A DNA stretch of 45,541 nt, from NCBI GenBank assembly GCA_002261195.1, contig MVBO01000119.1, forward strand, positions 1 through 45,541, in the 5' to 3' direction. The position numbers and the translations under genes are program-made. This document shows positions 8,064 through 39,703 of the stretch, in pieces; within the stretch, counting starts at the first letter, position 1, and the number at the start of each line of letters is the position of its first letter. The notes under the pieces were generated by a model. It had not been told where the DNA came from. It worked only from the letters and a program-made list of their open reading frames with translations, and did not search any database. Source of the stretch: Bifiguratus adelaidae. Taxonomy: Eukaryota > Mucoromycota > Endogonomycetes > Endogonales.

Positions 8064-9281
8064 ATGGGTTGTTGCGCGTCGGTGGAGGATCAGGAGGAGA
8101 AGCTTCGAAATGATGAGATTGAGACGCAACTCAAAAAGGATCGCATGACGCTACGAAATGAAGTCAAGATGCTGTTGCTTGGTAAGTAGGCACTCGTCTG
8201 AGGCATCTCGGCTCATATTCCTTGTGCAGGCGCCGGTGAATCAGGCAAATCAACCATACTAAAGCAAATGAAACTTATTCACGATGGTGGATATTCCAAA
8301 GATGAAAAGGAATCCTTCAAGGAAATCATCTTCTCGAATACCGTTCAGTCCATGCGCGTCATTTTGGAAGCCATGGGTAACATGAACATAGAACTTGCGA
8401 ATCCGAACAACAAGCAACACGCTGGTGTGATATTGGCCTTACCGAGTCAAATTGAAGGTGATCAATTGCCTACCGAGGTTGCCATAGCTGTCAAGAACCT
8501 ATGGCAGGATGGCAATCTTCGCGTTTGTTTTGCGCGTAGTCGCGAGTACCAACTGAATGATTCCGCGAAATAGTGAGTATCGGAATTCCTTTGACATCAT
8601 GTGACTGACCACATCCTCGGGTAGTTACTTTGATTCCATTGATCGCATCGCGACCATCGATTACATTCCAAGTGACCAAGATGTACTTCGATCCCGCGTG
8701 AAAACCGCAGGTATCACCGAAACAACCTTTGTCATTGGCGACTTGACCTATAGGATGTTTGATGTGGGTGGACAACGAAGTGAACGTAAAAAGTGGATCC
8801 ACTGCTTTGAGAATGTGACCGCCATCATCTTCCTCGTTGCAATCTCAGAGTACGATCAACTGCTCTTGGAAGATGAGACGGTGGTACGTATTTGCGTGAT
8901 TGACGCGCGTCTTTCCTCGCATCATCTAACGCGTTATAGAATCGGATGCAAGAAGCTCTTACTTTATTCGACAGTATTTGTAACTCGCGTTGGTTTGTCA
9001 AGACGAGCATCATCCTCTTCCTCAACAAAATCGATCTTTTCAAGGAGAAGCTCCCCAACAGTCCACTCAAAGTCTACTTCTCCGACTATGACGGTGGTAA
9101 CAACTTTGAGGCCGCGTCCGATTATATATTGAATCGGTTTGTGAGTTTGAATCAAAGCGATGTCAAGACGATATATACCCACTTCACTTGCGCGACCGAC
9201 ACAGCACAGATCAAGTTCGTCATGGCGGCGGTTAATGATATCATTATACAAAACAACTTGCGTAGCTTTGGATTGCTGTAA
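8064..9281 (+). CDS. Heterotrimeric G-protein alpha subunit 1
   Basis: Membrane-anchored GTPase coupling seven-transmembrane receptors to cAMP or MAPK signalling. Exons 8064-8181, 8230-8572, 8625-8883, 8940-9281 give 353 aa, the normal length. Seen: MGCC N-terminus (myristoylation at G2, palmitoylation at Cys3/4), P-loop GAGESGKST, switch [11 protein letters not shown] (the Mg-coordinating Thr is present, the next Thr is Ala), switch [18 protein letters not shown] guanine specificity motif, and TCATDT. The C-terminus is RSFGLL, without the Cys at -4 that pertussis toxin modifies. Its stop lies 111 nt from the stop of the convergent SDHA gene. Assignment to fungal group I, II or III is not possible by eye. 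Confidence 0.95.
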
Positions 9282-22751: not shown

Positions 22752-24191
22752 ATGGGAAACTGCTTATCCGGGGGCAACCCCGATTCCGTGCGGAGCAAAG
22801 CCATTGACAAACAGCTTAAACATGAGGAGAAGAGACAGAAAACGGAGGTGAAGCTTCTTCTACTCGGTAAGTTGTCCTTCGGGATTGTCTCCGGTGGCAC
22901 CCCTGTCACTGTGTTGCTATGCGCTCGCATGCCTCCTTCGACCATCGCTGATCGAATTGTCTCTCTGATTTAGGTGCTGGAGAATCCGGCAAATCAACCA
23001 TCCTAAAGCAAATGCGGCTCATCCATGCCTCTGGATTCTCTCCGGTCGAACGAGAAAATTTCCGACTTGTGGTGTTTTCCAATATGACGGAAGCCATGCA
23101 CGCCATGCTCCAGGCCATGGAGCAGCTTAAGATTCCCATGGAGTCCAAGCAAAATTTGGTAAGTCCCGCTCCAAGCGCATAGAAGCGCGCGCGCAATCTC
23201 GGCTTAACCACCATTCAGGCATACGTACCTCTCTTCTCCGAATCTCCCTCTATTACACCCGGCAAAACATATCCCCGTGATTATTACAGACCGATAAAGG
23301 CATTGTGGGCTGATTCTGGTGTTCAAGAAGCCTTTCGCCACAGCAATACGTTTCCCTTAAACGATAACGTGAGCTAGTAAGTCACACAAGCCTCAATAAC
23401 GGTGATTGTTGTCTAAACGCACAACAGCTTCTTTGATCAACTCGATAGGCTGTTTGCCGAGAATTATATACCCACGGACCAGGATATTATACGATGCCGA
23501 GTCAAGACCACTGGCATCGTCGAGACCGTGTTTCAACTAGGCCCATTAACATATAGGTAAGTGATATTATTATGTGTCTCATCACGCTTGGTAATTCAGC
23601 GTTTTAAAGAATGTTTGATGTGGGAGGGCAACGCAGCGAACGCAAAAAATGGATACATTGTTTTGAGAACGTGACAGCGCTGTTGTTTGTTGTCGCCATT
23701 AGCGGCTACGATCAATGCTTGGTGGAGGACAAGGACGCAGTAAGTTCACGCTATGCTGTCTCCGCTCTGAACGGCCTACTCACACCTACTAGAATCAAAT
23801 GCAAGAAGCGCTCATGCTGTATGATTCCATATGCAATTCTCAATGGTTCATCAACACATCGATGATTCTCTTTCTCAATAAAATCGACATATTTCGGGAA
23901 AAGATTCATTACTCACCAGTCTCACGATATTTTCCCGATTACACTGGTAAGTCATTTTTGCTGCTAGAAAGCAACCATGGCGTAACCACGCGTCTGTCGC
24001 TAGGCCCAAATGATGACCTGCATCAAACCCGAGCGTACTTTCGACAACGTTTCCAACGTCTCAATCGCAGTGAAAACAAGGAGGTGTATCCCCATTTCAC
24101 CGACGCAACCGACACCAATCTTTTACGTCACGTCATGACCGCAGTCAGCGATATCATTCTCAACGAGAACCTTCAACTATTACTATTGTGA
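22752..24191 (+). CDS. Heterotrimeric G-protein alpha subunit 2
   Basis: Second G-alpha, 352 aa, exons 22752-22866, 22974-23158, 23219-23376, 23428-23556, 23610-23739, 23793-23946, 24004-24191. Seen: MGNCLSG (myristoylation G2, palmitoylation Cys4), GAGESGKST, switch [11 protein letters not shown] (canonical), [16 protein letters not shown] and TDATDT. The C-terminus NENLQLLLL lacks both the Gly and the Cys of most G-alpha tails, which would alter receptor choice. Three of its six introns (after the LLLG codon start, within the YF codon before FDQL, and before NQMQEAL) coincide with the three of G-alpha 1; the other three are extra. It is therefore a diverged paralogue, not a recent tandem copy. 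Confidence 0.95.
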
Positions 24192-39129: not shown

Positions 39130-39568
39130 ATAATGTGTTGCCACATCCATCCAAACATTCACCCGGTCATGATGCTGACGCCTATTTAACATCCGGTATC
39201 ATTCCCCACTCTTCCTTCGCGCTCGCCACCACCTGCATGCATTCGCGCCATCAACTCACCTTAACTTATAGCCTCTAAAATGGATAAAGAGAGCACCGAC
39301 CATCCACGACTGAGTATATATATGGGACCCCAAATTAATTCATTTTGCTCACTTGCTTACTAAACGCCCGCTGAGTCAGCAATTGGAATATTGGGGCGAG
39401 TTGTACTAGAGCCGAGCAGCAGACGGGTACTTGATGCGTCGGTGACATGTTGGGAGGCGATATCTAATCGACCTTGTGCAGAATATGAAAAACAGAGTCG
39501 ACACCCAATGTTCGCTCTGCAATTCATCCATCCCATAATTACTGAAGATTTGGTCGACTTGCCACTCA

Positions 39569-39575
39569 TATATAT
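39569..39575 (+). promoter_or_regulatory. TATA box of tRNA-Sec gene
   Basis: TATATAT starting exactly 30 nt before the first tRNA base. External TATA at -30 is a known feature of eukaryotic tRNA-Sec genes, whose internal A box is degenerate because of the unusual D arm. Ordinary tRNA genes in fungi do not depend on such an element. Confidence 0.65.
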
Positions 39576-39598
39576 GGTCTCTGTACCTTCCATATTTT

Positions 39599-39686
39599 GC
39601 AGAGTTGAGATTCCCTGGTGGGGGTTGCTGGCTTCAAACCAGTAGACGACGAGAGTCGTAACGGTTCGATTCCGTCTACTTCTGCG
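39599..39686 (+). tRNA. Selenocysteine tRNA (anticodon UCA)
   Basis: An 88-nt sequence folding as eukaryotic tRNA[Ser]Sec. D arm: 6-bp stem 39610-39615/39620-39625 with loop TGGT only. Anticodon arm: 6-bp stem 39626-39631/39639-39644, loop CTTCAAA, anticodon TCA at 39634-39636, reading UGA. Variable arm: 5-bp stem 39646-39650/39655-39659 with loop GAGA. T arm: only 4 bp, 39661-39664/39672-39675, loop TTCGATT. Acceptor: 39599-39607 with 39676-39685; pairing is good at the outer five pairs and then needs a bulged T (39680) and one T-T mismatch. G39686 is in the discriminator position; G73 is required in Sec tRNAs. The B box GGTTCGATTCC is perfect. A serine tRNA is excluded by the anticodon and the 6-bp D stem; a mitochondrial Trp tRNA is excluded by the long variable arm and nuclear context. 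Confidence 0.87.
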
Positions 39687-39695
39687 CCATCTCTC

Positions 39696-39703
39696 TTTTT
39701 TTT
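39696..39703 (+). terminator. RNA polymerase III terminator (T8)
   Basis: Run of eight T residues beginning 10 nt after the last tRNA base, the normal stop signal for RNA polymerase III. Supports a transcribed tRNA gene rather than a decayed copy. Confidence 0.75.

Follow-up and report, generated by a model that had tools for sequence, protein, structure and literature searches.

A selenocysteine tRNA gene and its predicted decoding machinery in the mucoromycete fungus Bifiguratus adelaidae

Does a tRNA-like locus in Bifiguratus adelaidae encode a genuine nuclear selenocysteine tRNA (tRNA-Sec), and does this fungus recode UGA? Selenocysteine (Sec) has been reported in nine fungi from the Chytridiomycota, Zoopagomycota and Mucoromycota (PMC11378755). 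B. adelaidae itself is named among the Sec-using fungi (PMC7988114), and seven of the nine are assigned to the Harpellales in another account (PMC10386755). This agrees with the preliminary description of the locus, which gave fungal Sec as reported only in a few early-branching species. Two papers from 2021 nevertheless state that fungi encode no Sec, on the grounds that annotated proteomes contain no U (PMC7988114, PMC8559351). As the fungal Sec trait was published in 2019 and is already reported for early-branching fungi, the find is known rather than new. Three of its parts may be new: the architecture of SBP2, a candidate SECIS core and an encoded CCA.

The gene lies on the forward strand of the window, by which we mean the whole analysed stretch of 45,541 nucleotides. 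It is 88 nt long, comprising positions 39599–39685 and the discriminator G at 39686, as placed by the RF01852 alignment, ARAGORN and the sequence. The anticodon TCA, which reads UGA, occupies 39634–39636 (+; tRNA position 36 in ARAGORN). The D stem has 6 bp (AUUCCC/GGGGGU) and a loop of 4 nt (UGGU), the anticodon stem 6 bp (UGCUGG/CCAGUA), and the variable arm 5 bp and a loop of 4 nt; in the T arm, a 4-bp stem closes a loop of 7 nt. In the RF01852 alignment, the acceptor stem contains nine pairs, one of them a U-U mismatch, together with a single bulged U. Alignment and sequence confirm the length, anticodon and arms that had been described for this tRNA. The T arm, GGTTCGATTCC (39663–39673, +), fits the Pol III B-box consensus.

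The flanking signals noted earlier, a TATA box near −30 and a T8 run, are also there. The TATA-like box ATATATAT is found at 39568–39575 (+), from −31 to −24 relative to the first base of the tRNA, and the T8 run at 39696–39703 (+) resembles a Pol III terminator; both would act in transcription, and neither is specific to tRNA-Sec genes. Immediately 3′ of the discriminator base, the DNA encodes CCA (39687–39689, +), for which the chance expectation is 1/64. Such a CCA, encoded in 3% of eukaryotic tRNA-Sec genes (PMC5330540), is unusual for a eukaryotic nuclear tRNA-Sec gene; this one is otherwise ordinary among its kind. Elsewhere on the same 45-kb contig, two stretches resembling G-protein alpha subunits were recognised by eye, at 8202–9281 and 23793–24191 of the window (both +).

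The preliminary description had proposed a Sec covariance model as a check, and this was borne out. Aligned end to end over 39599–39685 with Infernal, RF01852 scored 67.1 bits (E = 1.2e-11 in the window), about 20 bits higher than its gathering cut-off of 47 bits. ARAGORN found a sole tRNA in the whole window and called it tRNA-SeC with anticodon tca. The locus combines the UCA anticodon, the 9/4 acceptor/T stems, the 6-bp D stem, the long variable arm, the G73 discriminator and a score above the curated cut-off, as expected of a eukaryotic tRNA-Sec gene. In the 18,628,366-base assembly, only 39599–39685 exceeded the RF01852 cut-off. A second match, at G000:C284, stayed below it with 34.6 bits and was rejected, as ARAGORN identified it as tRNA-Leu(taa). 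The tRNA-Sec strand folds more stably than its shuffled versions (z = −2.63; 1 of 200 equally good). Because the minimum-energy fold differs from the 9/4 cloverleaf, we regard the covariance model as the real evidence for tRNA-Sec.

A tRNA-Sec in use should be accompanied by SecS, PSTK, eEFSec, SBP2 and SPS2, as had been predicted, and the assembly contains genes for four of these and a candidate gene for PSTK. Together with the tRNA gene on contig C23, these five are spread over six contigs. SepSecS, on contig C31, encodes 481 aa in eight exons and scores 577 bits with TIGR03531 (cut-off 225); its best match among the matches listed is a protein of the chytrid fungus Polychytrium aggregatum (56%). 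The PSTK candidate on contig C146 was modelled over its first half only, the first 176 aa. Its top NCBIfam model is TIGR03575, which it matches with 90 bits, far below the curated 382, and its top Pfam model is KTI12, a family related to PSTK; its motif DDNMYYRSMR is one that we take to be as in PSTK. eEFSec, on contig C249, has 575 aa in ten exons as modelled by hand, including one doubtful 26-nt intron. It matches human eEFSec (chain 7zjw_E) with E = 3.1e-144 and contains the eukaryote-specific third and fourth domains (PF21208 and PF21131). An EF-Tu-like match on contig C280, considered as eEFSec, was rejected as mitochondrial EF-Tu.

Proteins named SepSecS also appear in P. aggregatum (56%) and Hyaloraphidium curvatum (53%) among the matches listed. 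Neither species is among the Sec-using fungi named in the cited portions of the papers above, and both are possibly further Sec users.

The SBP2 homologue (G000:C233:42447–44628, +) matches SECIS Binding Protein 2 (chain 7zjw_B) with E = 2.2e-30; its model was made by hand, and the junction of exons 2 and 3 is uncertain. The last exon (C233:43271–44628) is a single open frame of about 451 codons, in which the second half of L7Ae is followed by ankyrin repeats (Ank_2, 93–95 bits). Because a stop-free frame of this length spans both L7Ae and ankyrin, the simplest reading is that SBP2 is fused to an ankyrin-repeat tail, a protein predicted from the open frame. Among 12 relatives of the SBP2 part, retrieved by a protein search that covers proteins of about 350–1115 aa sharing exact words, none had ankyrin among its precomputed domains. 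A literature search found no SBP2–ankyrin protein described among the matches listed, where co-mentions were incidental, judging by titles. The paralogue SBP2L is stated to be absent from fungi in a 2009 paper (PMC2746813).

The recoding of UGA, also predicted, is reflected in two genes whose reading frame carries a TGA at the known Sec position. The selenophosphate synthetase gene (SPS2) on contig C2 encodes 361 aa in ten exons, separated by nine introns of 46–76 nt; the model includes an 8-nt micro-exon (C2:23815–23822, +) and one GC-AG intron (C2:24383–24439, +). Its product scores 239 bits with TIGR00476 (cut-off 125) and matches human selenide, water dikinase 1 with E = 6e-113. The sole in-frame stop is a TGA in the context SGLKG-U-GCK, aligned with a Thr of the human protein, and we take this position to be that of Sec in known SPS2. 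The second gene, on contig C33, encodes a GPX4-like peroxidase (PF00255, 149 bits), in which the TGA opens the third exon (NVASK-U-GLT). Its model is open except for this single Sec TGA, and the donor of intron 3 was placed by eye at CAGG|GTGAGT. The other GPx of the genome, on contig C228, has Cys at the Sec position, a call that rests on a first exon junction set by eye in a model that runs out of frame past exon 2.

These two are the only selenoprotein genes found across six searched families (TIGR00476, PF10262, PF00255, PF01625, PF02696 and PF00578); no Sec codon was seen at the active site of the Rdx, MsrA, SelO and AhpC-TSA genes examined. A TGA flagged in an Rdx (SelW-like) gene on contig C273 was placed within an intron, and the motif reads CTGC. 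Both MsrA genes have Cys. The C-terminus of the one SelO gene was read as Cys (CSCSS), with splicing partly modelled. Of the eight AhpC-TSA matches, which lie on seven contigs, seven were inspected and showed no active-site TGA, the eighth (L058) being an exon that adjoins L057; a TGA flagged on contig C185 is consistent with a splice donor. Most of the oxidoreductase genes examined carry Cys rather than Sec.

Of the components of the Sec trait in eukaryotes, SepSecS, eEFSec, SBP2, selenophosphate synthetase and an in-frame TGA at a Sec site are present, and PSTK is represented by the candidate on contig C146. Because the machinery genes occur together with SPS2 and GPx genes that carry a TGA at the known Sec position, UGA is very probably recoded in B. 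adelaidae, as judged from the genome sequence.

The SECIS elements that had been expected are not clearly present. Rfam SECIS models gave no match in the 3′ regions of SPS2 and GPx at E values up to 10. A genome-wide search with SECIS_1 returned a single weak match on contig C34 (20.7 bits, E = 1.83), about 2 kb downstream of a gene resembling mitochondrial processing peptidase by eye, and it was dropped as chance. Consensus SECIS elements are reportedly missing from most fungal selenoproteins, according to the 2019 work on the fungal trait.

A hairpin found by hand (ATGAC-11 nt-CAAA...CTGA) begins 25 nt past the SPS2 stop and folds into a 10-bp helix of −20.9 kcal/mol. In a shuffle test of 500 nt, 7 of 300 sequences gave an equally good hairpin and 53 of 300 gave any match. 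The same rule yielded nothing in the control 3′ regions of SepSecS, SBP2 and eEFSec, a weak hairpin (−9.6) in the fourth control, the Cys GPx, and no match in the 3′ region of the Sec GPx. Twelve genome stretches, totalling 229,576 strand-bases, contained 20 places of SPS2 grade, including that of SPS2 itself. As comparable places recur about once per 11 kb, this hairpin is a candidate SECIS that we grade as only suggestive. The SPS2 (C2:25187–25249, +) and GPx (C33, ~32525–32470, −) 3′ regions have in common the pattern ATATGACGC-10 nt-AAA, a possible minimal SECIS core.

We conclude that the locus is very probably a functional tRNA-Sec gene in the nuclear genome of a Sec-using mucoromycete. 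Points against this reading are the SECIS null with Rfam, the imperfect acceptor stem, the low PSTK score and the predominance of Cys in oxidoreductases, as well as the two 2021 papers that deny fungal Sec. The mismatched and bulged acceptor stem might be expected if the locus were a tRNA pseudogene, or encoded an ordinary serine or a UGA suppressor tRNA, and merely resembled tRNA-Sec, and ARAGORN is known to over-call fungal tRNA-Sec, with a specificity of 38% in a benchmark on fungi (PMC5330540). In the same benchmark, the RF01852 model had a specificity of 100% on 42 fungi regarded as lacking Sec (PMC5330540), and here every arm fits that model at 67.1 bits. The presence of the Sec pathway genes already largely refutes such a tRNA, the chance of which we consider close to negligible. 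A decaying relic, in which the genes persist and recoding of UGA has gone through loss of SECIS elements, would agree with the Rfam result and with the prevalence of Cys forms. We hold this to be very unlikely, since the reading frames modelled for SepSecS and SBP2 are open, those of SPS2 and GPx are open but for one Sec TGA each, and a SECIS-like hairpin follows the SPS2 stop at 25 nt.

The Sec genes might also derive from another eukaryote in the sample, given that Sec is rare among fungi and that the proteins placed by homology come from contigs other than that of the tRNA. Bifiguratus belongs to the Mucoromycota in the NCBI taxonomy. The closest named relatives of the mtIF2 on contig C250 are, among the matches listed, those of Umbelopsis (67%) and Jimgerdemannia (62%), followed by Mucorales, and therefore the host of the assembly is a mucoromycete. 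The Sec components are distributed over six contigs, the top SepSecS match among those listed is fungal (P. aggregatum, 56%) and the nine SPS2 introns are short, at 46–76 nt; short introns are usual in fungi. Together with the mucoromycete mtIF2 of the same assembly, these observations make contamination highly improbable.

In the working tRNA-Sec gene favoured here, transcription would be carried out by Pol III, perhaps aided by the upstream TATA-like box. From the roles of the respective families, seryl-tRNA synthetase would load the tRNA with serine, PSTK would phosphorylate this serine, and SepSecS would convert the phosphoseryl-tRNA into Sec-tRNA using selenophosphate derived from SPS2. 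eEFSec and SBP2 would then bring Sec-tRNA to the UGA of selenoprotein mRNAs. Decoding itself may have been remodelled, with the SBP2–ankyrin fusion acting on SECIS elements that retain no more than a minimal core (AUGA, 13 nt, AAA) and are missed by standard models. We put this forward tentatively, as a plausible proposal just short of an even chance.

Starting from raw sequence, the present analysis independently reproduces the use of Sec in a small-genome fungus. It also names two genes for selenoproteins whose Sec codon falls at the catalytic site, which bears on the published dispute over fungal Sec. The SPS2 and GPx Sec genes would go unseen wherever an annotation treats each TGA as the end of a gene. 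If true, the SBP2–ankyrin form offers a handle on UGA recoding in fungi with atypical SECIS elements.

Compared with known systems, the gene shares with eukaryotic tRNA-Sec (RF01852) the UCA anticodon, the 6-bp D stem with its 4-nt loop, the 6-bp anticodon stem, the long variable arm, the 4-bp T stem, the 9-pair acceptor stem and G73, and differs in the mismatch and bulge of the acceptor stem and in the DNA-encoded CCA. The two selenoprotein genes resemble SPS2 and GPX4-type Sec GPx in that their Sec codon specifies the catalytic residue of TIGR00476 and PF00255 proteins, whereas their 3′ regions are unmatched by Rfam SECIS models. Fungal and human SBP2 (7zjw_B) share the RNA-binding L7Ae domain and a conserved segment that precedes it (query residues 111–249); in the predicted fungal protein, however, C-terminal ankyrin repeats follow in-frame. 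With the fungal Sec trait as described by Mariotti et al. (2019), B. adelaidae shares a probably complete Sec machinery in a mucoromycete.
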